From: Diphasiastrum complanatum
Taxonomy: Eukaryota > Streptophyta > Lycopodiopsida > Lycopodiales > Lycopodiaceae
Assembly: GCA_029204225.1 (NCBI GenBank)
Contig: CM055108.1
Coordinates: forward strand, 26,341,303 to 26,405,302
DNA: 64,000 nucleotides
Reading direction: 5' to 3'
Position 1 is the first letter of the stretch. Each line of letters begins with the position of its first letter. The notes below the pieces were generated by a model that was not told where the DNA came from, ran no database searches, and saw nothing but the letters and a program-made list of their open reading frames with translations. Below, in pieces: positions 4,303 through 64,000 of the stretch. Position numbers and translations under genes: made by a program.

Positions 4303-4366
<64 letters not shown>
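4303..4366. repeat. Second compound microsatellite (GT)n(GA)n
   Basis: About 10 GT units (4303-4322) followed by about 22 GA units (4323-4366), in the same order as the tract at 3862. The two tracts lie about 350 bases apart in the 3' flank of the receptor-kinase gene. Confidence 0.97.
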
Positions 4367-4369
<3 letters not shown>

Positions 4370-4439
4370 GGTGGGACCTAGAATGTGTGACTGAAAAATA
4401 AAGAATTTGTGTATATGAGAGAGAGATAATTTATACCAG

Positions 4440-4553
4440 AGTGTGTGAGAAAGGGTGAGAGACTGAGAGGGTATTGTGAAGAGCAAAATGGCGTACAATA
4501 GAGTGTGTGAGAAAGGGTGAGAGAGTATTGTGAAGAGCAAAATGGCGTACAAG
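4440..4553. repeat. Direct tandem duplication of about 50-60 bp
   Basis: A unit beginning GTGTGTGAGAAAGGGTGAGAG and ending near GCAAAATGGCGTACAA occurs twice in a row (about 4440-4498 and 4501-4552). The copies differ by a short internal length change. It looks like a local slippage or unequal-exchange duplication next to the GA microsatellite. Confidence 0.85.
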
Positions 4554-4902
4554 AGAAAGGTACACACTAAGTGCCCACAAGTGAAGAATGCTAAGATTTT
4601 GAATGAGCTCCTTCCACACCAGTTCACACTCCCATTTGGTGTGTGAAGAGATTATATCTATTCCGAAGGTGCATTGTCGACCTCTCCTAACTTACTCATA
4701 AGTGAAGAACGGATGGATTCATAAGTGAAAAACGGACGGATTTCTGGACCATCGTAGGACATGGATTGCAACCCAAAAAGGGGGTGGGCAATGGCCGGCA
4801 CTCCAAATGCAGCTCCTTGGTTTTTTCTGGAGGTAATAGCTTAGAGAATGGTAAACCCCGTTTAATAGAATAGGAGCATCAAGCATGGATGTGATCATAA
4901 TC

Positions 4903-5036: not shown

Positions 5037-8000
5037 CTAAATGTCCTCAAGTGCTCCTAAGACATCTCGCATACTGGGTCGTTTCATGGAATCCTTACTT
5101 GTGCACCATGTGGCAAGCTTTAGAAGCTTCAGAAGTTCTTCTGGATCTCCGGATTGTGTAACAACAATGTCGTATGCGTCTATTTCTCTTCCATCGTGTC
5201 TCAATGACATCGTCCATTGCACAGTGTTCCTACAATTTTTATCATTGTAAGGAACATCCACAGGTCTTCTGCCAGTAAGTAGCTCCAACAGAACTACTCC
5301 AAAGCTGTAAACATCTCCTTTAATAGTAGCTCTCCAGGTCTGCCCATACTCTGGCGGAAGATATCCCACATTTGCAACCACAATAGAGCTGACGGGGGCT
5401 TCCTTCCCATTCAGCACTTCTGCAAGGCCGAAGTCTGCTAAGTGAGGCTCAAAACTTTCATCGAAAAGGACATTGCTAGATTTCATATTTCCATGGATGA
5501 TTGGAGGCGAACAATTATGGTGAAGGAATTTTAGTCCTCTCGCCATTCCTATAGCAATTTTGAGCCTTCGGGGCCAGTCCAAGATTTCTTCATGTTCTGG
5601 CTTCTCGTGTAGCCAATCATCTAGGCTTCCGTTTACCATGTACTTGTACACAAGCAGCTTCTCACTTTCAATAACTGCGCATGCTAGAATAGGAACGAGA
5701 TTTTCTTGATTTGCATGGCCTATAGTCTCAATCTCGGCCAAAAAGCTTTCCTTCGAGAGCAGTCCCTGCGACTGGATAAGCTTTTTTATAACAGCCAGCG
5801 ATCCATCCATCATCACGGCTTTGTACACAACTGCAAAACCTCTATTACTAATAATATTACCCTCGTCAAAGTTTCTGGTTGCCATCAACAAGTCTGTATA
5901 CCTGAGCTGCTTAGGTAACTCGGTGGAGAATAAGACCACATTCACCCTGGTAACACCAAGGCAAGAACTTTCTTTCAAGTCAACTATGAGACTGGAAGCT
6001 GCCTTACTGAATCCACGATTGCCTACATAACAGAATCCTATAACAATAAGAATCAAAACACCTGCGATTGTTAAAGTTGCAAGCCGCGCTGTTCGAGATG
6101 TAGAACTATGTACATGACTTTGACCTGGCGTTTGGGTTGTAAGAGGTGACTTGCAAAGGGGGATCTTGGTATCAGTGGAGTTATTTACGCTCGAGTAGCA
6201 TAACAAATCGTCCCCTAGGTATGATGATTCAAGAAATGTGAGAAACTGCCCACCAGTTGGAATTTGTCCAGATAATAGTGGATTGTAAGAGACATTGAAT
6301 ACAGTAAGTGCTGAACTATGCTCTAGTGAGATGGGTATGGATCCATTGAGGTTGTTAAAGGAAAGATCCAGGACTTCTACACATTTCATTTGTGATAAGT
6401 CATAAGGAATAGCTCCTGTAAGAATATTGTTATGCAGCCGTATGAACGACAGTCCAGGCCTGTTGAATATGTCAGGTATGCCACCTGACAAGTTGTTGTA
6501 AGACAGGAATATTGCGTTAAAGTTGTATGTTTCTCTCAAGCTTATCGGAAGACTGCCACTTAACATGTTCATAGAGAGCTGCATGTGGCCATTCATTTCA
6601 ACAGCGCTTGCCTGATACTTGCACATAGGGTAAATGACATGACCTTTTATAACTCTATTCCACCAGTAGCTGCAAAATTCGATGCTCGCCAAGGCTGGAT
6701 ATAGATGAAAAGGATATTCAGAGGCTGGTAACCACCGCAGGAAAATATTGCACTGACCCAGCTGTCTTGGAAGATCGATAAGGTTCTTGTTGTTAGATGC
6801 CAATGTCACTGCCGACATGTTGCCAATGGAGCCTACATTTTCGGGTATTGGACCCGAGAGTGAATTGTTAAACAGATTCAGCCATATGAGACTAACGCAG
6901 TTTCCTATTTCTTGTGGAATTTGGCCGGTAAGGCTATTGTTTGCCAGGCGAAGCCATAATAGGTTACGGAGGTTCCCGATGGTGTTTGGTATGCTTCCAG
7001 TGAGCTTGTTATCTCCAAGGTCGAGGACTTGCAAGTTGGCAAGGTAGCCCAGCTCATGAGGAATATAGCCTGTATAGAAATTGTTTGGAAGAAACAGGAA
7101 CTGCATACTGGTGAAACTCGAAATATAATTGGGTATTGCTCCTCCGAGTGGATTGTCACTAACATCCAGATATATTAAATTTGAAAGCATTGCAATTTCT
7201 TTTGGTAAACTTCCAGAAAAGTTGTTATTCTCTAGCATTAAATACTGTATAGATTTCAGCTGACTGAGAGCCGGGGGTATGCTTCCTCCGAAATTGTTGG
7301 CTCTCAACTCGAGAATGTCGAGGTTGACCAAACTAGTTATTTGGGGAGGAATTTCACCTACAAATTGATTTCCTCCTAGAAATAACCACGTGAGGTTAGT
7401 GAGCTGATTTAGTTCTACTGGAATGGATGTCAGATAATTTTGACTAAGCATTACAACTGATAATGCACTGCAATTTCCAATTGCAGACGGAATCTTTCCA
7501 GTCAAATAATTCAGTGAGAGATCAATGTATGACAGGGAAAAACAGTTAGAAAAGAGTCCATCTGGAATTGGTCCTGTCAAATTATTTCTTCCCAGGTTTA
7601 AGAATTGAAGGCCAGGAATCTGGCCTAGTTCCATAGGTATGTAACCCTGCAAATTGGTAAGCTCCAGATCCAGAGTAGTCAGAGATTTGCAAATATGAAT
7701 TCCAGGATGGAGTTGCCCACCAAGATCTGGGTTATTAGAGATGTTGAGAATCTTCAAATTACCACACATAACAGGAAGTGTTTCAGGGATTCCACCTGTC
7801 AGCTGATTGTCAGCCATGCTGAGATACTGCAGATTAGTCACATGAAAAAAACTATCTGGGATTTTACCGTTGAAAGAGTTGCTGGAAAGGTCCAAATAAG
7901 TCAGAAAAGAAAGGCTTCCAAGTTCAGATGGAATGGTGCCATTGAATTTGTTCTGATTTAAGGATAATAAAACTAGAGCTGTAAGCTTGAATAGCTGAGC

Positions 8001-8230
8001 AGGAATTTCACCCTGCAATGTGCGATTGGATAAATCCAGGCTTGTTACCCTAGTTACTCCTGAAAAAGAAGTACACTTAACTCCCTCCCATGTACATGGG
8101 TCAGTGGCATTTTCTTTCCAGGTGGGAAGCAGCGTGCTGGAGACACTTGGGTTGCCGAGCGTAAGCACTTCTTTGAGAGAGATCAAAGCTTTCGCATCCT
8201 GAACTTGAAGTGATCCTTCAATCTGTAATC
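5037..8230 (-). CDS. LRR receptor-like kinase (LRR-X, NILR1/At1g74360-like), main exon; probable pseudokinase
   Basis: This exon encodes residues 66-1129 of a 1129-aa single-pass receptor kinase at the plasma membrane. In order it has an N-terminal cap with a DPCTWEGVKC Cys pair, about 22 leucine-rich repeats, and an island of about 55 residues (roughly 560-615) before the last repeats. Then come a Cys pair, a transmembrane helix (about 782-802) and a kinase domain (about 845-1129). The island, the NPLLSGQIP block and PPEYGQTW in the kinase resemble Arabidopsis At1g74360 (NILR1, 1106 aa, a pattern-recognition receptor), recalled from memory. Ligand and role here are inference. Kept residues are the VIKK Lys (about 881), the helix-C Glu (about 898) and DFG (998-1000). 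Lost are the HRD Asp (HGN at 978-980) and two of three loop glycines (SNRGFA, 860-865). This predicts little or no catalysis. The open frame continues upstream only to a GTG, not an ATG, so another exon is needed. The frame is otherwise unbroken. Confidence 0.93.
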
Positions 8231-8410
8231 CTGGACACACAAAATTCACCCAGCCATAAATATTTTATTCGAGTACATCTTCAACTTTTAACTTATCAAG
8301 GATCAAAAATACAAAAATATGTTTGCTTCTTCCGATTGTGCATTTTAGGTCATTTCATTTAGACTCAACAACAATTTTGTGCTATTTCTTCCCATCTCTT
8401 GCACAATACT

Positions 8411-16086: not shown

Positions 16087-16132
16087 CATTAGGGGAAATA
16101 TGGGCTCAAAATGGGCCCTTTAAGAAGTTTGA
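16087..16132 (+). repeat. Left terminal inverted repeat of DNA transposon copy A
   Basis: CATTAGGGGAAATATGGG...GGGCCCTTTAAGAAG matches the ends of the 48308 and 59146 miniature elements and the end at 26388 (pattern CATTAGRGGA, then CAAAA, then GACCCTTTAAG) with several differences. It lies about 380 bases before a transposase-like gene. I could not find the matching right end. Confidence 0.5.
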
Positions 16133-16462
16133 CTTTAGAGAGAGGTTACGTAGAGAGAGTAAATGGAAACCGGTAACGTTTGGCTGCCATTTTTCGGGCT
16201 TCTGGTAATGCCCGCACTCTAACTATTGTCGTTTACTAGCTCTAACTTCAAGCATTAATTAGTTAAGTGTGCTTGTAATAACAAAAGACAAAAATTTTCT
16301 GCGTGTTTCAGCCGACTTATTATCTTGGTCTGCTCTTTGCAAAATATGTAGCGGGAGCACTATGAGCTCAAATGTTTGTATGCTCATAGTAAAATATGAG
16401 GTGGGAGAATGATGAGCTCGATATAGCCAAAAAGCCTGAGGTATTGAAGAAAAATCTTGTGA

Positions 16463-17570
16463 GATATTGTAGTTTCCAACAATGGAAAATCTCATTTGTA
16501 TGTTGAACTTCCTGTGGAATGTTATCAATTTTTAAAAAAAAATTCAAAAGTTGTAGAAAATGTTGCTTCACTGATTGAAGATTTGAAAAAACAGAATCAT
16601 AAGCATGTAGATTTGTGGGTAGATGGAACAATCTATCCTAAAGATCTAAGTACTAGTTTATGTCCAGACTTTAAGTCTATCAGTCATTTCCTTAGATTTG
16701 TATGTGAAAGACATAGAAGATTACTTGGATATTGTCAAAGGTTGCGAGATTTTGGCATGCATAATTCACAATTACTGTAATTACAATATGCTAATCAACA
16801 ACAACAACATGCTTATCAACAATTGCAACATTATGTGCAACAAATCATGAACAAAAATTTTGCACTGAGTGGCTCTATATTAGAACTAAATACAATAATC
16901 ACTAGCCTTTGGAGCTCAAAGTAAGATATGCTAGAATCATTGGAGAATTTACAATTTGAAAGTTTGAAATCCATTGCTGATGTAGATGGTATCAAAATGG
17001 CAATACTGAAAAAGAAAAGACAAAGGGTACCAAAGAAGAATATTGATGACTTATCCTTATGCAGGGCCAATCAGAAAAAAAGAATTCGAGCTTTCAAGTA
17101 TGACTGTTATTGAAGTTTGATTGCAAATTGTTGTTTTGAACTTGTTAGTTTTTTATGTAGTTATATGCATTTATATGACTAAACATTACTGTTTTGTGTA
17201 TTGCAGATCATGCTTGGTAGGAAAGGACTATTTGAAAGATCGTTTATGTATTGGAGAATCTTTAAGTTATGGTCTTCCAAAAACATTTGCAAGGGCATTG
17301 ATGAGAAATTATCGATTTGAGAAGATGAAAAATGAAATTGCAGGGATGGTTTTGAGTAAGGTGCAAACCTATTTAGATGCAAATGAAATACAAGGTGCAA
17401 GTGATCAAGTTGGAGTTAGCAGATTTGCTTATTCCACTGTTTTTCAGAATTGTACAAGAAGCATTTTCTCAAGTAAAGATTAAGAAGACTTATCTTCCTT
17501 GTCCATATCAAGTAACATTAGCAAGAAATTATGCTAATGAGAGATGTAAAATTGTATCCAATCCTTAGAA
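16463..17570 (+). pseudogene. Spliced transposase-like gene, DNA transposon copy A (N-terminal part)
   Basis: The frame 16463-17097 codes for about 210 residues and has two in-frame stops (taa at 16778 and near 16922). It includes a helical first part (VECYQFLKKNSKVVENVASL), a Gln-rich run near 16790-16850 and a basic segment (KKKRQRVPKKN). A donor at 17098 (AA|GTATGA) and acceptor at 17206 (TTGCAG|ATCA) remove 109 bases and restore a Lys codon. The second exon reads SCLVGKDYLKDRLCIG... and needs a frame change near 17440 to go on into the block LPCPYQVTLARNYANERC. This exon matches, block for block, the second exon of copy B at 26816 (LSALVAPRNIKDN...), with the intron at the same position and phase. 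The catalytic part is missing. The function is inferred; I do not recognise the superfamily. Confidence 0.55.
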
Positions 17571-17648
17571 CTTCTACATCAAATGGAAAATTGGTAGAAA
17601 GCTCAACAAACTCATAGAGATAAACTTACTGCTGATTTCTAGACCGCT

Positions 17649-17831
17649 ATGAAAAATGTTGTTGACACATCATTTCCAGCAAGAGAAAATATATGGTGTT
17701 CTATCTGTTTGCAGAATCACACTGCCAATGAATGTCCCCAATTGAAACACCATTATTTGGTAGAATCCAAACTCATGTATCGACCATACCATGATTACAA
17801 TCCACAACAACCTATGTCGCGACTGTCGTGA
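17649..17831 (+). pseudogene. Zinc-knuckle-like fragment (CxxC-H-C)
   Basis: A 60-codon open frame contains WCSICLQNHTANECP, a Cys-x2-Cys-x3-His-x4-Cys arrangement one residue shorter than a standard CCHC knuckle, followed by a Tyr/Pro/Gln-rich end. It could be the zinc-binding part of the upstream transposase-like gene or a leftover retroelement gag knuckle. I cannot decide between these. Confidence 0.35.
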
Positions 17832-18560
17832 CACACCAAATTATGTTTTAAGGTATTTAATGTAGTATATAAGATGTCGTTCCCCATAAAGAGAGAATTA
17901 ATGTCATTATAGTCATGGAAATTGTCATTCTATGTAAAAGATAGTTAACTGGTTATCAAAGGATATTTAGTTTAGGCAGCCAGTACAACCTTTTCAATAT
18001 TAAACAATGATCTCACTATTACTGATAGATTATTTACTGATAGATTATTGATAGTGGTTCTCTCCCATACATTGCCATGCATGACCATAATCGGATTGAG
18101 CGACTACAGTCACTACACACATGACCAGATCAACCACAAGTTCCAAGATTATACTTTCTCCAGTTCTGTCTCAGTAGCTAAGCAACCTACAAAATGACTC
18201 AGGGAATCAAACATTCCCTCTCATCCTACTTCGCATAATTTGATCGAACGCACATTTGTATAGTTATGAATCAATTCAGAAGTATGCTTCAATATGGTTT
18301 GGATTTGAACTGTCTCAATAGCCATCATTCAATCTTTACCAAACATTCATCATTTACTTGAAAGAGACAGAGCTTACATAATTCATGCAAACTCTGAAAA
18401 AATAGTGTGTACCAAACCCATTCAATCACTTATAGAGCATAAACCATTCATACAATTAAGCACCAAGGTATTTGCTTACTCTTATTAAAATCATGAGTAC
18501 AGTGGCTCTTTATAGTCTCGCGACTATGGTTAACTGTTTAACTATCATAACTGATGTAAC
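17832..18560. other. Non-coding DNA, nothing recognised
   Basis: There is no open frame of note and no recognisable element end. Confidence 0.4.
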
Positions 18561-19548
18561 TACTGTTCTCGGATTTGGATAATTTTTTTGACATTGGATC
18601 AAATCAGATCGGCGAGTCTATAAATTCCGATCTTCTAAAAATCTGATCCTTAGTAAAAATCTGATCCAGTCAGAAATTTGACCCAAATCGATTTTGTTGG
18701 CTGATTTTGACGAATCCCCAAGATACTCGGCCAGAGCTACCCAAGAGCACCTCTCACCTTAGACTGAGGAGGTCTCTGAGAAGATGAGACGAATGAAGAT
18801 TGAGAGCCGAGGAATACTAGTCAGTATTGTCAAGTAGAAACTGTGTATCATGGTGAATCACGGAAGATGGAATGACCATGTAGGAGCTAGTATTTCTAGG
18901 CAAAGTAATAGATGCAGCCTACATCTCTTAAAGAAAGTAGAGTGAGCCACCTTTTGATGGTGACCTCTAGTGGAGAGCATTATTCCACTTGTAATTTTTG
19001 TAATGTGGAAATGCCACTAGGATGCCACCTAAGAAGCTCTCTTGTTTATTTAAGAGACTCCCTCTTTGTGAAGAGGACCTTTTTGTGTATTGTATCAACT
19101 CCATGCTGAAATAAGAAGAGCCTCCATGAGTTAGGTGCATCCATTGAGCTCTTTGGTCATGCTTGTTTCTTGAGTGATGCATTCATGATCTTGCCTTTCT
19201 CTCCTTTGTGTGTGGTTGTGGTTTGTAGAGTGGATTAGATTTCCTACTTTTCTAGAGTGGATTAGTTTTCATTTCTTGTTTGTGGATTGATGTAGGAATT
19301 AGCATTCAAGTAAACTAAATGGGCTAGAAATGTGGTATAAATCCTGCATATCCTCCAACATTCTAGTTCTTGATGTTCTTGGAATGTCCGAGAATCAAAA
19401 GACTGGTTGGTTTCTTGATTCTTGGACTTCCAAAATGCTGTAGATTAGTTTCTTGTTTAAGTTTTGTGGATTAATACAGGTGTAGCTTAGTTGTAGAATG
19501 TTTAGAATATGATCGTAACTTGTTTTTAGAGTAGCTAGTTGTAGAAAC
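18561..19548 (+). repeat. LTR-like sequence, left part (split by a Copia insertion)
   Basis: The stretch has LTR-like composition: a TTATTTAAGAGACTCCC promoter-like block near 19047, followed by a transcript-start-like region and repeated TAGAGTGGATTAG blocks near 19235-19265. It may continue after the Copia insertion at 25204-25400. No internal coding region or clear TG/CA boundary is seen. A solo LTR is a plausible but unproven reading. Confidence 0.3.
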
Positions 19549-20193
19549 TGTGAAAGATTCTAGATCCTTAAGATCCAATCTACTTGAATGATCTTTGGTT
19601 AGAAAGAGAAATACACTACCAATTTCACCAATGTAGAAAAATCAGCATCTACACACAATTTGAGATGCAAACACTAATTGAACTTGATCAAACTTGAATG
19701 AAATGATTATGTACTGTTGCTGTCCGTACAAAACCAGCAAGCTACTGTATTTCACACGTGTGGATCCAAAAATAGCAAATATAGATCATTCTACACATAG
19801 AATTGCAAACAATCACCAAGATAGTGCACCAATGGATAGTAGAACCCAAGAGAACCATGTATAAGCATGAAATGAGATAGAGAAGAGAGAAGATGACTCT
19901 CTCCATGAGTTACATCCTTCTATAGCAGGTCCAAACCCTATTTGGCCACTTGGCTTTCCCACCAAAATGCTAACCCTACCAATTTTGGGTCTAGATTCAA
20001 TGTACCCAACTTATTCAAATTGAATCTACTCAAACTCGCATTCTATCTTTCCCACACTTTCAAAAAGCGTTTATTCAAATGAAATTTAGACTAATGAACT
20101 TTGAAAAGTCAACCTCTAAGTCTAAAACAAGTTTTGGCTTCAATATGCCAAATATGAAAATATTGCAAAATGAAACTAGTTGAATCTTTCACA
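19549..20193 (-). repeat. 3' LTR of the Copia element (645 bp)
   Basis: It runs from TGTGAAAGATTCTAG to GAATCTTTCACA. The adjoining CTCCCTCTTCAACTAG is the polypurine tract on the minus strand. Confidence 0.95.
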
Positions 20194-23100
20194 CTCCCTC
20201 TTCAACTAGTTTTAGCATAGACTTTGATAATACTCCAAGTGAAGCCCTATGCTTCATGAACAAGTCTTTTCTCAATGCTTTGGTGAAGATATCAGCTACA
20301 CATTCCTTTGAAGACACATGTTGAAGCTCCACCTCCTTTGCAATGACTCGCTCCCTCACAAAATGATATTGTATCTCAATATGCTTGCTCCTAGCATGAA
20401 AGATAGGATTGGATGCCATTCTTTGGGCTGATTGATTGTCACAAAAGATGATTGGGCTCTCTGAAAAATCCAGCAAGTGAAGATCCTTGATCATCCTCTT
20501 GATCCATACCATCTCCTTTGTGCAATGTGTAAGAGCTTTGTACTCGGCCTCACTAGATGACAATGAGATAGTGGCTTGTTTCCCTCATACAATATGCCAA
20601 AATCTCGAGTTCCAATGATGTACCTCAAAACTCGCTTTTCTAGCTTCCAATGCTCCTCACTAGGATCTTGCATGAATTGACTCAATCTTCCAACACAATA
20701 GCTTAGATAAGGTCTAGTAATGGTTCAATAGATGAGTGAACCAACTAGCTTTCTATAGAGAGTAATGTCCTTGAAGGATCTTTCATTACCTCTTATAGTA
20801 AGCTTTACATGAGACTCCATAGGTGTATCAATAGCTTTTGCATCTACCATATGAAATCTTTCTAGAATAGAATTAGCATACTTCTCTTGACAAATGAAAG
20901 TAGATTGAGAAGATCTAATGACTTCTATTCCTAAAATGTAATGCAAATTAACAAGATCATGCACCTCAAACTCCTTCTTAAGAGCATTCTTGATATCCTC
21001 CACATCTTGATTGTCTCCACCACTCAAGATGATATCATTCACATAGATTAGCAAGATGGTAGCATCATTTCCAGCAAACCTATAATAAAGTGAATGATCA
21101 TACTCACTCATAACAAAGCCTTGAGAGAGTAAAAAAGTGTTAAGCTTAGCATACCAACTCCTTGGTTCTTGCTTAAGGCCATACAAACTCTTTTGTAGAA
21201 GACACACATGATTTGGCTTTGTTGATGAGATGTAGCTCTCGGGTTGCTCCATGTATACTTCCTCCTCAAGATCACCATTCAAGAATGCATTTGAAATGTC
21301 CATTTGCCATAGATCCCATCCATAAAGTGTAGCAAGTGAAATGATGACTCAAATGCTTACCATCTTTGCCACGGGTGCAAAGGTCTCATCATAGTCAATT
21401 CCTTGTTGTTGAGCATATCCTTTTGCCACTAGCCTTGCCTTGTACTTGTTGATAGATCCATCTTGGTTTGTCTTCACCTTGAAGATCCATTTGCATCCAA
21501 TAGCTTTCTTGTCCTTAGGCAACTCCACCAATCTCCATGTTCCATTCTTCATAAGAGCTTGATACTCAAGATCCATTGCTTGGATCCACTCCTCTTCTTT
21601 CCTTGCCTGATCTACACTTGTAGGCTCATCCAAAGAGGTTAGGAAAGCAACATAATCTCCAGAAACTACTTGCTTACCCTTTTGATCATATGTGAGCCTT
21701 GAAGGTACTTGTCTTTCTCTTGATGTTCTCCTTGGCTTTTGACTTGATGAAGGTCCATCATCACCACCATCCAAAGTAGGATCCTTCTCATCAACATCAA
21801 GAATGTTAGAACCATCTACTTTACCATCAATCATGCTTGAAGACACCTTTGGAATGTTTCCCTCATCAAAAATGACATCTTTACCAACAATCACTTAGTT
21901 AGTAGAAGGAATGTAAACCTTGTAGGCTTTACTCACCTCACTATATCCAACAAAAATACCTCTTCTTGAAGATGGATCCTCCTTGGTCCTATCATCAAGA
22001 GTAATGTTGACATAGCATGTGCATCCAAAGGTTCTTAGAAAGTTGACACTCGGCCTCCTCTTGAATAGCATCTCAAAAGGTGTCCTTCCATCCAAAATAG
22101 CACTCGGCCACCTATTGCACAAGAAATTGGCACACAACAAAGCTTGATCCCAAAATGGTTTGTCAAGATTAGCACTTAACCTCATAGCTTTAGCACTTTC
22201 ACATAAAGTTCTATTCTTCCTTTCAGTCACTCCATTTTGTTGTGGGGTCCTTGATGTTGTATACTCCCTCTTGATCCCATGCTCATCACAAAAGGCCTTG
22301 AACTTGTTAGATATGTACTCACCACCATTGTCACCTCTCAAGCACTTGATCTTTGTGGAAAATTGGTTCTCCCTTGCATTCTTGAACTTGACAAAGACAT
22401 CATACACTTCATCCTTGCTCTTTAGTAGATAGATCCAACAAAATCTACTAAAATAATCAATGAATGTTACATACATCTTAGCTCCACTATTGCTAATTGT
22501 AGTAAATCCATGAATATCCGAATGTACAAGTTGAAAAGGCTTTGTAGATCTAGAAATAGATCTAGTATAAGGTAGTCTATGTGACTTAGACAAAGCACAA
22601 GACTCACAAACATGCTTGTCATTACTTAAGAAACTTGGAAGACCAATCACAACCTTCTTCCTTGCCATTACCTCCAATGACTTGAAGTTGAGGTGTCCCA
22701 TCCTTTTGTGCCAAACCTCTTGAATAGAAATTTGCTCCCTTGCAACACATCCAACTTGGTTAGCAATAACACAAGCATCAAGTTTGAACAACTTCCCTTG
22801 CCTTTTACCTTTTCCAATCAAGACATCCTTCCTTTTGATCAAACAAGCATCTCCATCAAACTCCACCTTGAGGCCCTTACTTAGCATTTGACTCACACTA
22901 AGCAAATTCTTGATAATAGATGGAATAAACAAGACATCCTCCAAATGAACATTCCTATTTGTAGAGAGAGAAATAGGAATTGTGCCAATCCCTTTGATTG
23001 CACACTCACCATCATTGGCCGTGTAGATCACCCTCTTGTCATCTCCATATGCCAACAAAGAAGTGAAGTACTCTTTGTGAAAGGTCATGTGTGAACTTGC

Positions 23101-24548
23101 TCCACTATCAATCCACCAAGGATCTAGATCTCCATCATTAGCAAGCATACATGGAGACATCACAAAAGCATCATCATTTTCATCTTGCACATCCAAACCA
23201 TCCTTATCAAGAGTAAGATTACCTTGCTTGTCTCCTTGATCTCTCTTCTTCTTGTAGCACTCACTTGCAAAGTGTCCTTTGATGCCACAATAGAAGCATT
23301 TGAGCTTTGATCTATCCTTCTTTTTGCCACTTGAAGAAGCATCCACTTGATCTTGCCTCTAGACCACTTGCTTTTGGTTTTGCCCTTGAATTTGCCCTTT
23401 GTGAACATAGCATCCTCTTGAAGTGTCGATGTAGATCCACCTCTTGCTTGAAGCCTATATTCCTCATTGATCAAGATCTCTTGAGACATTAAGAATCACT
23501 TGAATAAGCTCTCCTTCCTTAATGCTTTCATCTATGCAAGCTAACTCATCATTCAATGCTTTCATTCTCAAAACAAAAGTACTTGGACTTTCTTCATTCT
23601 TTTGCAAACAAGAAAAGATTTGCCTTCTTAGAGTCAACAGTCTAGAAGTAGACTTGGATTCATAAAGCTTCTTCAATGAATTCCAAGCTTCCAAAGATGA
23701 TGTGCACTTACCAACTTCCTTGAGAAGTTCATTGGTAACATTCATCTTATCATGTGTAGAGCCTTCTTGGCCCTCTTGTCATACCTCAATTGATCTTGTT
23801 GTGTTGCTGGTCTCTCCTTCAAACCTACAACAATATCCAAAACATCATTCATCTCAAGAAGTGACTCCATCCTCACTTTCCATAATGAATAGTTACTTGA
23901 GGTAAGCCTATCATTGGCTTCCAACATGACTCCAATTGAGGTTTCCATGTAGCAATGACCTGATCTTCCCTTTCAACCTATTTCAATGCACAAAGCACTC
24001 CTTTGAACAACAACAAATGCTTCCAAAAGAAATCACCAAGATTTGAAACTATCTCACAAATTCTCTTCTAGCACTTATCCAAGCAAATCAACACATAGAA
24101 TCATGGAATCTTGATCAACCTATGATCTATCCTCAATTTAATGACTTTTTCCACTTCCTAAGATTGAAACACACTCAAATGAAGTCCAGCAACCTCACTA
24201 TCTAGAGATCCAATCAAAATTAGGGTTTTGACAAAATCACAAAAAATTGACTATTCCAAATCTACATGCAAATGCTGAAAAATTGATATGCAATCTATAA
24301 GCCACCACTTAGGCTGAACCAATGATCCAAAAATTGGCCAAATCCAGCATGTGAATTCAAAAAACGGAATTGAACAAGTATATTGACCTATTTAGTGTTT
24401 TGATCTACAAAAGATCCAATCTACAAAAGCAAAAAATCCGATTTTGGTGTAGAATCCTCTCTAGCATGCTCTAGACTTGATATCTTCACCAAATCATTGA
24501 TAGATCTGATTTCCTCCTTCATAACCTGAAACACAAGCTCTGATACCA

Positions 24549-25198
24549 TGTGAAAGATTTTAGATCCTTAAGATCCAATCTACTCGAATGATCTTTGGTT
24601 AGAAAGAGAAATACACTACCAATTTCACCAATGTAGAAAAATCAGCATCTACACACAATTTGAGATGCAAACACTAATAAAACTTGATCAAACTTGAATG
24701 AAATGATTATGTACTGTTTCTGTCTGTACAAAACCAGCAATCTACTGTATTTCACACGTGTGGATCCAAAAATAGCAAATATAGATCATTCTACACATAG
24801 AATTGCAAGCAATCACCAACATAGTGCACCAATGGATAGTAGAACCCAAGAGAACCATGTATAAGCATGAAATGAGATAGAGAAGAGAGAATATGACTCT
24901 CTCCATGAGTTACATCCTTTTATAGCAGGTCCAAACCCTATTTGGCCACTTGGCTTTCCCACCAAAATGCTAACCCTACCAATTTTGGGTCTAGATTCAA
25001 TGTACCCAACTTATTCAAATTGAATCTACTCAAACTCGCATTCTATCTTTCCCACACTTTCAAAAAGTGTTTATTCAAATGAAATTCAGACTAATGAACT
25101 TTGAAAAGTCAACCTCTAAGTCTAAAACAAGTTTTGGCCTCAATATGCCAAATATGGAAATATTGCAAAATGTGATGATACTAGTTGAATCTTTCACA
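24549..25198 (-). repeat. 5' LTR of the Copia element (650 bp)
   Basis: It runs from TGTGAAAGATTTTAG to GAATCTTTCACA and is nearly identical to the partner LTR. A CTATAAAAGGATG promoter-like block lies in the middle (minus strand, near 24920). Confidence 0.95.
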
Positions 25199-25203
25199 GA
25201 AAC

Positions 25204-25815
25204 TATTGAACGTTCATTTGGGTTGCATGCTGATTTGTAAATGAATGTTCATGGCTTGCATCTCTGTTTGAGTGTGAGTGCTTTAAAGAGAGAACGACCT
25301 TGAGTGTCCTTTGACAGGCAGGACAATATACTACAACGTTAATCAGTCCGTTTCTGTCTGGCCTGGGCATTATAACAGATAGGAAAACAATCAGTTAATG
25401 CCCAAACAAGCCTGGTAACAGGCAGAGATAGTGCTGAAACCAAGATGGAGCAAAGAATCCGTAGGCAGATCCTTCTAAGCAGAGGATCTGTCTTCAGATT
25501 TACACTTAAACTTCCAAAATACTAAAACTGTCCATTACTTCAAAAAATGAAATATATAAAATCAAAACTTTAGAGAAATAAAAACTTAAAAAACCATCAT
25601 GTGACTAATTCATGTTGTCACATGTCTTCTCCCTCAAATCCATCAGGGCCCTCTGATGTCAACTCTATTGAATAGGTTCTATATAAAAACTCACACTCAA
25701 TATTACAAAAAAAACTACATTTCTGAGCATCACATTTATCTTGTATTGTAAGTTCAACATACATTCCTGCTTGTCGATGCCCTAAAATCTTCAATTTGTG
25801 TGTGAATAATATTCC
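25204..25815. other. Non-coding DNA, possible continuation of the split LTR-like sequence
   Basis: The first 200 bases may be the right part of the LTR-like sequence interrupted at 19549. Otherwise nothing is recognised. Confidence 0.3.
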
Positions 25816-26202
25816 CTATTGCAATTTTTCCAAGTAACCCTTGAATTGACTCCCTCCTCTTCTCTTGGATAAATGTAAAGTTGAATTTTCCTTTGTGATG
25901 GGTAAGTAATCCATCCTAGAATACATTAATGGAACTCTTAGCAAGGTTCTGCCCACGAAACCCGCTAAGTCAAAGATTCGATAAGTTGTCCATAAACGAT
26001 GGGTTGGGTGTTTATCCCTCTTAGTTATACATTCTGACATCTCATCAAAGTATTTAACATATTTATCCTCCAACTTAATGTACAGAGCCCATAATTCTTG
26101 ATAATAGTAATTGATTTGTTTTGGATTTCTTAAAGATGGTTTCAACATCCAATATGTTTTCATTTTGAGAACAAGTAAATCGAATGAAATGATGCTCTTC
26201 AA
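25816..26202 (-). other. Unrecognised open frame, 128 codons
   Basis: The minus-strand frame encodes a basic, aromatic-rich protein segment (ELWALYIKLEDKYVKYFDE, then YRIFDLAGFVGRTLLRVP). It has no motif I recognise. Further fragments that read like the same protein extend upstream to about 26370, with breaks. It starts just left of the transposon end at 26388 and runs away from it. It may be a fragment of an unknown mobile element or gene. Confidence 0.3.
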
Positions 26203-26387
26203 ATCAGGTATCTGATTCTATAATAAAAGTTAGTTTTTTAGTTCTCAAATACTCCAAAGCAAATAATGAAGAGCTTCCTATCGAAATCTATGTCAGCCCT
26301 GGCTTTTCTACTACAAACAAACCCTGTAAAATTTCTCAAGATAGGCATCATTTTTCTTCCAAAGTTAGGGTTGACCAGAGTGGCATG

Positions 26388-26428
26388 CATTAGAGGAGTT
26401 CTCAATATCAAAAAGACCCTTTAAGGAA
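26388..26428 (+). repeat. Left terminal inverted repeat of DNA transposon copy B
   Basis: CATTAGAGGAGTTCTCAATA and the following TCAAAAAGACCCTTTAAGGAA match the ends of the miniature elements at 48308 and 59146. The first 35 bases are identical to the end at 63915. The transposase-like gene starts 226 bases further on. Confidence 0.75.
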
Positions 26429-26613
26429 TGCCATGTAGGATATAGAAAAATATTAAAATAAAAAAAACAATATTGTTCATTTGCTTGCCCACACGACTCC
26501 CAAGGCCTCCCAACTCCCAATGATCTAACCATAGTGTCTATAGTCACGATTAAGGACTGTTAACAGTTCGCAGTATAACTTGACTAAATTCAAAAATATT
26601 CCCTCCATTGGTT

Positions 26614-28370
26614 ATGGAAAGGGCAATATTTTCACTGGATCTAGAATATGATTGCCATCCCCAAATTCGAATCAGGAAAAATCGCAAAATGTTTACATAT
26701 GCATTCCTTCCACAAGAATGGAAATATGAGCGCCAATTTTTGTAAGTTTTTCAATGACATTTGGATTTAATTTCAGCTATGGTGATATTCTGTTAACTAT
26801 CTGTTTTTTTTGCAGATCTGCATTAGTAGCTCCTCGGAATATTAAAGACAATGCTCCACTAGGAATGTCATTGGGCACAATATTGACTTGCAAATCCACT
26901 AAGCGTATCATGATGAACAATAGGAAAATAGCAGAGTCTTTGATGATGGACATTCAATTTTTTTTAGATAAGACTATAGTTTAGGGTGCTTGTGATTTTG
27001 CAGGTACTTGAAGAAAGAGAGGGATCATTAAACATAGGTATGCATAAGATCACTGGAACTCCATTTCATATTGAGGAGGTGTATAAAACTGATGGAAGAT
27101 CGATATTTTGTAATTCATCAAATAGTTTATTTGTTGATCTAAATTACTTGCTGAGATACATTGTCACATTCTATGATATAACTTATGAAAAGGTGAATGG
27201 AAAAATAATCATAGTACTTAAGTTAGATGAGTCAAAAATTGTGAAAGGGCAAAAGATGGAGAGGGTTAGTATAACTCTCATGAATGGTGCTCTAACACAA
27301 ACATAGAACCAAGAAGATTTCAGATTCAGTTTCCAATCAGAAAATAATATATGGTGGTTGGCAGCGTTTTAGGTAACTAGCCTCATTATTACATTACATT
27401 CATTGAATAGTATTAATACATTGTAAACTAAGTCTGATTAATTCTTTGGACAGATGCTGAAAGAGGATCATGATATATTATCATGGATATTCTCAAGGAC
27501 ATCTTATCCTAGGATCATCAAGGACCATATGGATGGAGGACTTTTCAATGTTCCAGGAGTTGGAGACTTCAATGTTGAATGGCACTTAGTAGGTGATTTG
27601 AAAACATTGAAATGCATGTATAATGTCTCTCACGGTGCTACATCAAAACACCCTTGTTTGTACTGCATGAAAATGGCAAAAGATGTAACTAGGAGTACAT
27701 GAATTACTAGAGAATATGCAGATCCAAACTGGAAGCCCGTGCTGCCTATCCCTTTAAAAAATGTGCATGTTTGCACTCTTCGTGCAGAAGTTAGATCTAT
27801 AGAAAAGATCATTTATCTTCATATAGTTTTTGCTTGGAATACTAAGCCAACATCATTAGCAAAGGAAGCTATCTCTCGATTAGAAGATGTTTTATCAAAA
27901 TCATGACTCCATAAAGGACATGTCAAAATTCAAAAAGATGAAAAGCTTTCAGGAAAGAATGGGAACATGCCAAGTAAGCCAAGCATAGGATGAGCAAAGG
28001 CACTTTCCTATCAAATCATACTGGTAAGGCTTCTAATATTCAACACTCAATCTACAAAACCAGAGTACTAAAAGTTGACGTATGGAAAAAGCTTGATAGT
28101 ATGATTGCTATTTTAAGAAAAGAAAAATACTCTGATATTTATAAGAAAGCTGTCCAAAGGACTTGTGTCGAGTTTGTTAATGCAGTATCAAAAGCATGGG
28201 GAGAAGATCACATCACTCATTACATGGTTAGTATAAAATTTTCAAAATGCTTTCAAATGTTCATATATATTTAGATCCAAACATAAGACTAACATTATGA
28301 TTTTGACATATGCAGCACATACTAAGAGATCATACATCATTTTTTGCAAATACCCAAAATACCAGATCCT
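26614..28370 (+). pseudogene. Spliced transposase-like gene, DNA transposon copy B
   Basis: Exon 1 (26614-26741) starts MERAIFSLDLEYDCHP. Intron 26742-26815 (GTAAGT...TTGCAG) joins phase 2 to exon 2 (LSALVAPRNIKDN...). A frame change near 26985 precedes 27001-27372, which holds VLKLDESKI and a WWLAAF block. Intron 27373-27453 (AG|GTAACT...GGACAG) leads to 27454-28226 with VEWHLVGDLKTLKC, a PCLYC zinc-type pair and VHVCTLRAEVRSIEKI. Intron 28227-28315 leads to HILRDHTSFF, and the frame ends where a telomere-like tract begins. Asp in LKLDE, Asp in VGDLK and Glu in LRAE are candidate catalytic residues of a DDE-type transposase; this is inference. Premature stops occur near 27304, 27370 (a CAG-to-TAG-like change at the exon end), 27700 and 27904, and there is one frame change near 27980. 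The gene is therefore dead. I do not recognise the superfamily. Confidence 0.65.
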
Positions 28371-28678
28371 AAACCCTAATCCCTAAACCTTGAACCCAGA
28401 ACTATAAACTCTAAATTCTAAATTCTAAACCCTAAATCTTAAACCCTAAACTCTAAATCCTAAACCCTAAACCTTGAACCCTTATTCCTAAACCCTGAAC
28501 CCAAAATCTTAAAATCTAAATTTTAAACTCTAGACCTTGGACCCTAAATTCAGAATCCTAAATCCCAAATCCTAAGCCCTAAACTCTAGACCTTAAACTT
28601 TAGCTAAACTCATTGCTCATTACGCTAAATCATTTCCCTAGGTCCCTTGTTTTAAATTCCAACCCTAAGCTCTAAACC
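28368..28678. repeat. Degenerate telomere-like (CCCTAAA) tract, left part
   Basis: Dozens of variants of CCCTAAA, the plant telomere repeat, occur with many changes (ATCCTAAACCCTAATCCC and similar). It follows the last transposase exon directly and is cut by the Gypsy insertion at 28679. It continues at 43109. It is an internal, decayed tract and not a chromosome end. Confidence 0.85.
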
Positions 28679-31860: not shown

Positions 31861-33796
31861 CCTCTTCGTCTCTTTCATAGTTTTTCATTTCTGGAAGTGT
31901 GTTTACGATTCACGAATGATTCGTGAATTGTTCATGCTTCGAGTCAAGGCACGTTGACTATTGCAAATTGTTCGTCTTTCGACTTTTGCTTCGTGTTCGT
32001 GTTGCGACAAAGTTGCAGGAGTTCACCATTTCTGACAAAATGAACTTCTTCAGATGACGCCGATAGTTATATTTCCCAATTTGAATTCATTGCCATTTTC
32101 AGTAGTGAGGGAATGAATGCAGACAAATTATGTATATATCCTAGTTTGCTGCATAAACAAGCCCGAATTCAGTATAGCCAAATGGGTCGTGTGGCCGTTA
32201 ATACTTGGGAGTTGTTGAGAGAAGCCTTTCTTCATCAGTTTCGTGAGAGGCTACTCTACTCGAGTGCTTGCATGTCTCAACTCTATTCAAAAGAAAGCAA
32301 AGGAGTCTCTAAGAATGTACACCTAAAAAGTAAAAAACTTAATTGGTAAACTGGTGGGTGTTTATCATGTTGCAATGCATATTGAATGGTATCTTCTTGT
32401 AGGGCTGCCAAGTAAGATTGACAGGTACTGTTGACAAGGACAAAATTGCTCGGAAGCGTCGTTCCAACAAGAAGACAAAGAGGAAGTCATCAACTTTATT
32501 TGACAATTCAAGCTGGGAAGAAGATTTGTTTGCTAGTTCGGAGTAATCAAGTTCTAGTGCTGATTCCGACACTGAAAGATCAAATTCTTCCAAAGATGAT
32601 AAGAATCATAGGAAGGAGAAAAAGACAAAAAAGAAGATTAAGCCTTCCAAGAGTGCCGATGGATAGGTTTTGGATGTATATGAAGCAGATCCGGAGGAGC
32701 ATTGTCGTTATGTGCAAGGATCATCTACAGCCCAAACCGAAATTTGGACCAAAGTGCTTTGTACCTACTCAAACAGTGAACTCAAATCAAAAGACTATTT
32801 ATGCACCAGTCAATTTGCTGCCGAAGAAGCTGGCGGGCAGCTGTTATAACTGTGTGGCACACAAGGCCATTATTCACCTGATTGCTCGGAGCCTCGCCAA
32901 CCAATCGACTATGTACCTTTATGTTCAAATTGTTCAGGAGAAGGACATTTAGCTGCAGACTTCCCAAAGTCTCAAAAGCCGAAGGTGCTATACAAGTATG
33001 TCCAATCTCCAGGTGTTGAACCAGAGATTAAAAAGAAGCAAGAAGATGCAGTTGTGTAGAGAATTGAATGCTCTGACGAAGGCACTCTGATAGTTACTGA
33101 TACTAATTTGCCAAGTGATTTGGAAGATGTTTGCAAAGTTTCTACTCGGAGCACTTCAAAATCACTCAAACCAATGAAAGAGAGTTTAGCTAAAACTCGG
33201 AAGAATAAGAGGAAGCATCTGACAAAGAAGTCTCTTACTCAAAAAGACTTGAAGGATGACTCTGATTATGACAGAAATGCTGCTAAGATGTTTAAGAAAG
33301 ATGTTGCTGAGGAAGCAAAAACTCTTATCGAAGAAGAACTTAAATCCAATCTGCTTTAAAATAAGGTCACTTTTGAAGAGGAAGAGGAAGTTCCATTAAG
33401 TTCAAAGTTATCTAATGTTGTAGTGGACTTCAATGATATATTATATGCTATACTTCTGAGCTACTACTAAAAAGTTATAGCGATTCAAAAATATTGGTTG
33501 AAAATAGTGACAAAATGCAAAAGAGATCTTGGCACAAATTCATATGCGGCCCTTTTTGAACTCAAACTTCCTCTAATGTATGACAGAGGATATGGCACAT
33601 GCACTTGGACTTACTAAATCCAGCCTACTGAACGTAAGATCAAATTGGCCGACTTGACAAGGAAGAAGCCTGTAGGTGAGTTGAAGGAAGTCACGGTGTA
33701 TATCTACGATATACCATTTATAATGAATTCTATCATGATCCGACCAATCAGAATGGGCAATTATGTCGTCCTTATCGAAAGATCTTGGTTACATAA

Positions 33797-48307: not shown

Positions 48308-48678
48308 CATTAGAGGAGTTTTGAGCTCCAAAAAGACCCTTTAAGAATTAGTGCAAGATGTAGTTTATATTATTAAAATATTATAGCACTAATACTTTTG
48401 ACTTGCCATAACTGTTTAATCATAGCTGTGTCGTTTAACACATCATTGGAAAGCCCTTGTCGAGCACTTTGCACTGCACCAAACTCCGCTAAATTCGGAC
48501 TTACCACTAACAAGTTATGCCATTTTTAGTGTGGAATCAAAATGTGGACTCAAAAAGTTACGTTACGTAGATTTCAAATTTGAGTGTTTTGATTGGTCCA
48601 TGTGTAAGAAAAAATTGAGAAAAAATATAAAAAGAATCTTTACAAAGGGTCTTTTTTGGATTTAGAACTCCTCTAATG
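48308..48678. mobile_element. Miniature inverted-repeat transposon (MITE), copy 1
   Basis: 371 bases. It starts CATTAGAGGAGTTTTGAGC and ends GATTTAGAACTCCTCTAATG. The ends pair as terminal inverted repeats of about 40 bases with few mismatches (CATTAGAGGAGTT; CCAAAAAGACCCTTT). There is no coding capacity. It is inserted inside the nested Copia element. A near-relative lies at 59146. The ends match those next to the transposase-like genes at 16087 and 26388, which suggests a non-autonomous derivative. No clear target duplication is seen. Confidence 0.88.
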
Positions 48679-57579: not shown

Positions 57580-60500
57580 GCTTGATTACAAGAAATCTTC
57601 TACATCAAAAAGTGAATCGAAAAAAAAAAAATCACCTAGTCCACTCGCTGATCAAGATGACAGAGATAAGGAAGATATGGCTGCTCCAAGATTGTCTCCT
57701 TCTAAAATTTGGTATGATTATTTTAAAGGAAAAGCCTCAGAGGATGCAGATAGTTATGGGTCTCAATTTGAGTATGATTGCAACAAGCGATAGAGAAAGT
57801 TTAGATGCTGACAAACTAAGGATATTTCTCGGACTTCTCAAAAAAGAAGCCAGAACATGGTACAGCCAGATCAAACCTGATCTGATAACAACTTGGGGAG
57901 ATTTAAAAATTCAATTCCTAAAGCAATTAAGAGAAATTGGCTATTCAACAGGAATACGTACCCAATTGAATTCAATCAAATAAAAAGAAAAAGAATATTT
58001 AAGAAAATATACTCGAAGGGTCAAAAAACTAATTGGTCAACTGATTGGAGTATATCCGATAGCTATGAAGATCGAATGGTTCTTGAGGGGATTACCCAAA
58101 AGGATAGATCGATATTATAGGCAAGGACCTACTGAAAGCCTCGAGCATGTCATTGCTACGGCAGTTCATCATCAAGTTCTAGTTCATATTTAGATAGTTT
58201 GAGTGAAGATGAATCTCCAAGGAGAATTTCAAAACACCATAAGACACGAACTAAAGATCAAAAGAGAATGGAAGATCCAAAGAAGAGTGATCAAAAACAG
58301 CAAAACTTATGGAAGAAGGAAGTATGCGAACTCGATAGAAAATTTGAGGATTTGAAAGTTTATATTCTTCAACCGAAGAATAAGAGATAATCTCTTGATA
58401 CAATCGGAAAGTCGAATGTATGGTGTACAAAGTGTAATAAGGAAGGTCACCATTATTCGAAATATAAAGCTAAAATTCAAGTTTCCTATGTAGAAGAGAG
58501 TAATGAGGAAGGGAATTTTGACAACAAAGTGGTTTATTTAATTGAGGTAGATCCGGGTTCGACTGTATATAAAGTACAAACTTCTAATTCAGAAACTATT
58601 GCTACACCAGTCTCTTCTTCATATAAACCTCCTGTGAAAAAAATTATTCTAGTACAGAAGTATATAGTAACCAATCAGCAGAAAAATGGTGTCCAACAGA
58701 CAAAGTAGATACCTACATGTTTTAATTGTGACACACCTGGACATTATTCCAATGAATGCCCTGAACCAAAGAAGCAGATTGGATATGTACCCTTGTGTGG
58801 AAATTGCAAAGGTGAAGGACATGTAACTTCGGAGTGTCCTAACCCACCAGTTAAAAAATCATTGGTAAAGTATGTCAAACCTGAAACCACCAAGGATAGT
58901 GAAAGCAAAGATGACATGGTTCAGCAGGTCGAAATATCTGACGAAGAAACAAATTGGCCAAGTGATATTGATTTTGAAGTGTCAAAGGTGAGCACTAGAA
59001 GCAAGGCCAAACAAAAACGACAAAATGAAATCCGAATAGCAACATAATCGCCTAAAAAAAAGATGAAATCTTCAAAGAAAAAACAAGATTTAAAAAAAAA
59101 AGTCAATAAGTCTATTACGTGGGAAGATTTAGAAGACGATCCTATCATTAGGGGAGTTTGGGCTCCAAAAAGACCTTATAAGAATTCGTGCAAAGATCTC
59201 TTTTGTATTAATAAAATATTATAACAATAATAACTTTGACTTGCCATAACTTTCTAATTGTAGGTTAGAAGTATGTTATGTAACATATCATTGAGAGCCC
59301 TCATCAAGCACTTTTCAATTACCAAACTTCACAGAAATCGGACTTACTACTAAAATGTTATGCCATTTTTAGTGTAGAGGCAAAATGTGGACTCAAAAAG
59401 TTACGTTACGTAGATTTCAAATTTGAGTGTCTTGATTGGTCCATGTGTAAGAAAAATTTGAGAAAAAATATAAAAAGAATCATTACAAAGGGTTTGTTTT
59501 GGATTTAGAACTCCTCTGACATTATGACAAGAATAATAAGAAATATTTTGCTCTAGATATAATGAAAGAAGTAGAACAACTTATTACTATGGAGTAAAAT
59601 ACATCAAAGAAAATGGCTACTTTTGAAGAACCTTTGGAAGCTACGGTTCCAACAAGACCAAAGATTGAAAAATCTTTGACCTTCAAATTAAGTTATGACA
59701 TCATTGAAGATCTTAATAATTTGAGACCAAGCATAACGTTTAAGCAACTTTTAGAGACAATGTCTTCTATCAAAAACAGCTAAAAGAGTTATTGGTGAGA
59801 AGATGGAGGAAATCAAAACTACCAGCAGTCAACATCAATAAGGTTGAAATGGATGACCGAATTACAAATTAAAGGATGTATCATCTCTAATGTACCTGTT
59901 GATTCAAGATCTGGAGTGAATATCATCACAGAGGAGACTGCCCATGAACTTGAATTAGCTCATATTACACCTACTAATAAGTTCTTAAGGTTAGCTGATC
60001 AAACAAGAAGGAAGCCTGTGGGACTACTCAACAATGTTGAAGTAAAGATCAAAGGGAAATTGTTTTTACTAAATTTTGTGGTAATAAAACCAGTAGCAAT
60101 TCCTACTTGTCCGATACTGTTGGGTCGGCCATGGCTATATAAAGCTGATGTGATTATCCATTGGAAAAGCGGGAATTTTGATTTCCTATAAAAGAAACTA
60201 ATAAGCAAGTCCATATGAGTTGGTTGAAAGACAAATACAAAGTTGAGACGCAATTGGATTCCAGTTATACTTCGGGATCTGAGTCTTCTTTTAGCTTAGA
60301 AACAGAAATATCTAATTATATAGATATCCGATATCTAGAATGTTATGAATTAGAAGAAGAAGAAGTCGAGCCAAGTGAGCCCTTGAATAGGTACATGGAA
60401 AAAGTGAGATAGACCCTACTATGGGAATGATCGACATAGACAAAGTAAAAAGAATAACTCTTGAGTAGGGAAAAGAAGTGAATATTTCAGTTTGCTTGTC

Positions 60501-63914: not shown

Positions 63915-64000
63915 CATTAGAGGAGTTCTCAATATCAAAAAGACCCTTTGTAAAGATACTTTTATTTTTTTCTTTAGTTTCGATCGTCATGAGGCCCAAT
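63915..64000 (+). repeat. Left end of another DNA transposon of the CATTAG family, cut by the window edge
   Basis: CATTAGAGGAGTTCTCAATA and the following AAAAAGACCCTTT are identical over 35 bases to the end at 26388. The remainder lies outside the window. Confidence 0.7.

Follow-up and report, generated by a model that had tools for sequence, protein, structure and literature searches.

The 64,000-nucleotide stretch analysed here (the window), from the forward strand of contig CM055108.1 of the clubmoss Diphasiastrum complanatum, very probably contains decayed members of a family of cut-and-paste DNA transposons. Their transposase, encoded in several exons, is predicted to take the fold of RAG1 and Transib, and they would integrate without a target-site duplication (TSD). 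RAG1 is the enzyme that rearranges antibody genes, and V(D)J recombination has its roots in recombinases of the RAG1/Transib type. The first-pass annotation of the window had proposed a transposon family with terminal inverted repeats (TIR) and spliced transposases, represented by two plus-strand genes (copies A and B below); that much stands, i.e., a TIR family with an intron-bearing DDE transposase to which both copies belong. The recognizable parts of the two copies are:

16087..16126, plus strand: copy A, 5' terminal repeat (its first base opens 33 of the 41 match rows in the genome)
16463..16777, plus strand: copy A transposase exon 1, N-terminal region (DLWVDGTIYP...LLGYCQRL; profile 9-103, E 3.8e-19)
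17207..17565, plus strand: copy A exon 2 past the TTGCAG acceptor, in two frames (profile 231-324, 9.1e-13; 316-353, 2e-5)
26388..26425, plus strand: copy B, 5' terminal repeat (bases 1-35 the same as in the 63915 end)
26816..26981, plus strand: copy B exon 2 start past the TTGCAG acceptor (profile 223-298, E 5.4e-7)
26980..27369, plus strand: copy B region around the putative first catalytic Asp, in LKLDE, interrupted by in-frame stops (profile 1.9e-39, 7.4e-7)
27442..27699, plus strand: copy B region with the putative second catalytic Asp, in VGDLK, and PCLYC as the CxxC pair (profile 491-570, E 1.7e-46)
27703..28226, plus strand: copy B helical region (VCTLRAEVRSIEK ... THYM) with a GT donor at its end (profile 6.1e-32, 3.5e-10, 8e-20)
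28316..28352, plus strand: copy B last-exon start (HILRDH, H-x4-H pair), truncated before the putative catalytic Glu (compared by eye with P0050, P0051, P0091 and P0107)

At the level of sequence, copies A and B are one family, with a homology that goes far beyond chance, as had been argued from their shared intron. A profile of 62 sequences (A2), made from database relatives, matches 10 of the 2011 open reading frames (ORFs) of the window, all within the two copies and at E values from 1.7e-46 to 2e-5, as against none of 2069 ORFs from the reversed window at E<=1. These matches are collinear, covering exons 1 and 2 of copy A and running from exon 2 of copy B through the exon edge at THYM; copy A retains the N-terminal part and copy B the core, and both are damaged. 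The common splice junction is also borne out: AT(C) comes right after TTGCAG in A as in B, read R-S-C/A-L-V, and the junction recurs in outside relatives (P0002, P0006, P0039), where it reads R-S-L/F-L-x-P. Two details of the earlier gene models require correction. With the register taken from P0001, the end of the block common to A and B had been misaligned, in that QGAS of copy A pairs with GAC right after TIV in copy B, not with the later REGS. Further, whereas exon 1 of copy A matches the family, the first exon assigned to copy B (26614 to ~26745) has no family match in the profile search and is rejected as a family exon.

Relatives are numerous. A protein search with the stitched copy B core returned 38 of them (best 1.5e-84), and a second search, with an alignment of 18 relatives as the query, returned 163, the best 120 of which are listed. 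Among the matches listed nearly all are ORFs without a name in public assemblies, and those named by organism are gene models bearing pieces of the family: P0038 from D. complanatum, and P0142 and P0143 from the fern Adiantum nelumboides. P0038 is a calmodulin-like gene model that terminates in an apparent internal-deletion form of part of this transposase. A scan of viral contigs gave two pattern matches, neither of them confirmed. Among the papers listed on Transib and ferns or on Diphasiastrum repeats, none dealt with the family, which does not by itself establish its absence from print.

The nature of the transposase is suggested by its predicted fold, in which residues 214-847 of the model align on RAG1 430-1008, i.e., from the DNA-binding and dimerization region to the C-terminal domain; HzTransib is also among the best fold matches, these being predicted models. 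The fold and the order of the motifs together place a DDE triad in an RNase H fold, and catalysis would fall to the Asp of KLDE, the Asp of GDLK and the Glu of IWSxQGMEK. Among the candidate residues proposed previously, LKLDE, VGDLK and the PCLYC pair are thereby kept, whereas the Glu had been misplaced at LRAE, a column that varies in alignment A1 between L, R, E, M, V and other residues and was rejected as catalytic. Between the second Asp and the Glu lie the C(2)C and H(3-4)H pairs of the CMCT group (EnSpm/CACTA, Mirage, Chapaev, Transib, Plavaka, ESTA and Lanisha): CxxC is found in 109 of 112 family sequences and all six last exons checked fit the pattern from H(3-4)H to the Glu, with degradation in some copies of the clubmoss's own genome. 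The earlier statement that the superfamily could not be assigned holds for Pfam, which gave no superfamily among the families listed for the window pieces or the family members, but the predicted fold points to RAG1/Transib, within the CMCT group.

The genes lie behind a recurrent 5' end. The common end noticed earlier can be made precise as CATTAGRGGA-N(10-30)-RRCCCTTTAAG, a pattern present at three positions of the window (16087, 26388, 48308) as against 0.00 expected from 100 shuffles. In the genome (1.74 Gb searched for ends and for miniature inverted-repeat transposable elements, MITEs), repeat counts are lower bounds, with 40 of 1660 candidates scored for the copy A end and 40 of 2735 for the MITE; the first 414 bases of copy A give at least 41 match rows. 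Two further ends in the window lie on the minus strand:

33430..33578, minus strand: 5'-type end of an element of the same family (74% identical to 59146 over 150 bases)
63915..64000, minus strand: 3'-type end of an element continuing beyond the window (the adjoining genome stretch, L051, has a histone H3-like gene in the element's sense)

On the 5' side the CATTAG ends do flank these genes, one of the points on which the first-pass annotation had let its proposal hang: at seven loci outside the window (L006, L007, L040, L042, L044, L045, L046) a CATTAG-type end is followed by transposase exons. These reach the last exon in L045 (whose end reads CATTAA) and nearly so in L042, lack their middle part in L044, and are limited to exon 1 in L046; in L006 and L007 the end is followed by exon 1. 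L006 is an internal-deletion form in which the equivalent of 16087-16689 of copy A is fused to 17267-17418, while L008 and L048 appear to be near-duplicates of L007 and L046, respectively. L049 combines a CATTAG-type end with the C-terminal half of the core, including IWSSQGMEKSH, and has C-x2-Y at CxxC. No exon matches were found at L041, L043 or the stretch L039. The expectation of full-length copies, with both ends around one spliced gene, is not borne out, as only short MITEs were found two-ended: neither copy A nor copy B has a second end, and 3' ends sought in the long loci gave weak candidates, the best at position 8147 of the extended L042 with 5 mismatches in 20.

The evidence on insertion comes from the MITEs, of which the window has two:

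48308..48678, plus strand: MITE of 371 bases with both ends, lying within a copia reading frame, with no net duplication (end pattern, frame comparison)
59146..59521, plus strand: second MITE, 85% identical to the first, with a degraded 3' end

The 3' end of the MITE reads GACCCTTTGTAAAGAT. Among 2735 first-look candidates in the genome, the 40 scored cover 370 or 371 of its 371 bases at 93-95% identity (the window's own copy aside), and 28 of 30 MITE loci have CATTAG...CTAATG at both ends, L025 lacking the first C and L023 ending in TTAATG. These MITEs insert without a TSD. In 25 pairs of flanks (5 of the 30 loci having been removed as duplicates) there is no direct repeat, matches numbering 3, 1, 1 and 0 at k=1, 2, 3 and 4 as against 6.0, 1.9, 0.55 and 0.28 expected; the only match at k=3 (TCA/TCA at L015) belongs to a locus whose empty site nonetheless aligns free of gaps. 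Paralogous empty sites join at 0 bp for L010 (68% identity), L015 (81%), L019 (72%) and L030 (68%), and with one extra G for L037 (92% to L033, 91% to L014); these derive from eight rows, of which L020 (70%, poor at the junction) was left out and three are the single L037 site. The insertion at 48308 concurs, the joined copia frame reading SITK|NMLSV and equalling in length two other copia ORFs of the window. A TA duplication in a CATTAATG target was considered and rejected, the bases being absent from that joined frame and from the empty sites. The flanks (L009-L038) lean weakly and symmetrically towards T at +3 (14 of 25 insertions) and A at -3 (11 of 25).

It could be held that the MITEs have nothing to do with the transposase, chance or capture having given them common ends, and that they are members of a family without TSDs, for example Spy, of the PHIS type. 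A two-ended transposase copy was indeed not found, and Spy is named as a cut-and-paste group that likewise inserts without a TSD (PMC4482050). However, CATTAG ends precede transposase exons in both copies and at the seven genomic loci, and all of the first 35 bases of the copy B end recur at 63915, an end that runs on into the 3' end type of the MITEs (88.5% over 61 columns). Spy, moreover, favours AAATTT, a preference unmatched in the 25 sites (A at -1 in 8, T at +1 in 7). The transposase of Spy is of the PHIS type; the fold matches listed here are to RAG1 and include no PHIS-type chain, which has no bearing on families outside those lists. On balance this alternative is quite improbable, and the preferred reading remains a RAG1-fold family that would itself mobilize the MITEs.

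Under the preferred reading, a transposase dimer would bind the CATTAGRGGA...CCCTTTAAG ends, with its DDE site held by the C-x2-C/H-x4-H zinc site, and would cleave DNA where 5'-CATTAG...CTAATG-3' meets its flanks, a nick and hairpin as in RAG1 and Transib being the probable route. Since no target bases are duplicated, strand transfer would take place at directly opposite positions, or repair would remove the overhang.

Several observations weigh against this reading. With the 62-sequence profile, no RAG1 or Transib chain was found in PDB at E<=10, the only match being an unrelated dehydrogenase (E 1.7), and no Pfam transposase appears among the best 25 of 37 families at E<=0.1 for the 62 members; hence the case for kinship comes from predicted folds, and both fold models were built from alignments with mostly common members. 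No 3' end was found for any transposase copy, which restricts the TSD result to the MITEs, and another transposase with similar ends could mobilize these. The empty-site paralogs, L037 excepted, are only 68-81% identical. All translated copies from the clubmoss's own genome are damaged, L045 having K at the Glu and both L042 and L049 C-x2-Y at CxxC.

A second feature of some of the elements is a histone H3-like gene. L042 has, downstream of its transposase, an ORF with matches to Pfam Histone (2.5e-7; 31.4 bits against a cut-off of 26.4) and to H3.3 in PDB (4.7e-5); the upstream reading, separated from this ORF by a stop, opens with MVRTKQ. The H3-like stretches are:

L042 ~4319-4870: downstream of the transposase
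L041 1056-1271
L049 1346-1098: antisense to the transposase
L051 ~4002-3523: behind the end at 63915, in the element's sense
P0143: fern gene model in which a transposase piece precedes matches to histone (6e-9) and, below threshold, to Peptidase_C48 (0.067)

The other end of the L051 element was sought and not found, and its H3-like gene would lie inside the element. The H3-like genes have a common tail past the histone fold and, in the clubmoss copies, a Tyr two residues after D/N; all are broken. As a background, 30 MITE loci gave one weak H3-like match (L028) and the 64-kb window none. That match, at L028 1991-2200 (HGKRVTILPKDLHLAKRLRRERN), adjoins the MITE. L042 5197-5760 and L006 292-684 carry a common ORF that by eye resembles a Ulp1/C48 protease (GHWSLYALC), without Pfam support. 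Transposons have captured histone sequences before, as in the broken H4 and H1/H5-type (H15) gene fragments described for a Culex mosquito Helentron (PMC4067079). RAG2, the partner of RAG1, reads H3K4me3 (PMC8355894); hence, speculatively, the occurrence of H3-like genes with a RAG1-type fold may go beyond coincidence. It can be tentatively suggested, at somewhat less than even odds, that a deep TSD-less RAG1-fold lineage in seedless land plants (clubmoss-type and fern) has lastingly kept a histone H3 variant of its own, possibly together with a Ulp1-like protease, the histone aiding the targeting or escape of host chromatin. A histone H3 gene kept by a cut-and-paste transposon would be an unusual cargo.

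Copy B breaks off at ~28352, where a degenerate, telomere-like CCCTAAA-type array (28353-28620) interrupts it. A minus-strand copia-type element with long terminal repeats (19549-24848), whose 300-base direct repeats are 97% identical, separates copies A and B, and a zinc-knuckle-like stretch (CSICLQNHTANEC) downstream of copy A, at 17690-17745, falls outside the family profile. Farther off, a minus-strand ORF of 1075 aa (5037-8264) resembles a leucine-rich repeat (LRR) receptor-like kinase.

The family may be compared first with RAG1, whose spacing is D708-x18-C727xxC730 and H937-x4-H942-x19-E962, the letters of the C-terminal H-x4-H-x19-E part having been checked against the sequence. The family's D, D-x19-CxxC and H-x4-H-x18/19-E parallel this. 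Unlike the part of RAG1 compared (430-1008), it has ~210 further residues at the N terminus, among them a long helix (94-158). A plant member of the Transib superfamily proper might be seen in it, given HzTransib among the fold matches and 39 Transib-like proteins reported from plants, those named in the legend of the source being seed plants (PMC9435367). This is unlikely: the core matches in predicted fold but shows no detectable sequence homology in profile and Pfam searches, the ends are CATTAG rather than the CAC-type heptamer of Transib and RAG1 (PMC8355894), and the MITEs lack the 5-bp TSDs of Transib (PMC4411706). The family could instead be Lanisha, a CMCT cut-and-paste superfamily proposed in Repbase Reports in 2020, in which case it would already be named; the chances for and against seem evenly balanced. 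The authors as cited (Maumus, McDaniel, Carey) presumably indicate a moss origin, which would fit seedless plants. PMC12730594, which cites the 2020 report, gives Lanisha as EnSpm-like and assigns it the same C(2)C and H(3-4)H pairs as are seen here; the comparison covers these described motifs, and the 2-5 bp TSDs given there for CMCT speak against the identity. The marks of the CMCT clade in that paper are C(2)C, H(3-4)H, termini mostly of the form CA..TG and such TSDs, and the family shares the motifs and the 5'-CA..TG-3' termini, its CATTA..TAATG coming nearest to the CATCA..TGATG of PlavakaB (2-3 bp TSDs; same paper). It departs from the clade in the 0-bp TSD of 25 MITE insertions and in having no Pfam transposase listed for the 62 members; the best 25 of 37 families, those listed, contain no Plavaka or EnSpm family. 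TSD-less insertion, if true for the transposase itself, would break the group's 2-5 bp rule, and it is the missing TSD and the histone cargo that specialists would not expect. A large unannotated relative of RAG1 and Transib in clubmoss-type and fern genomes would offer a distant comparison for how this fold chooses its ends and targets.

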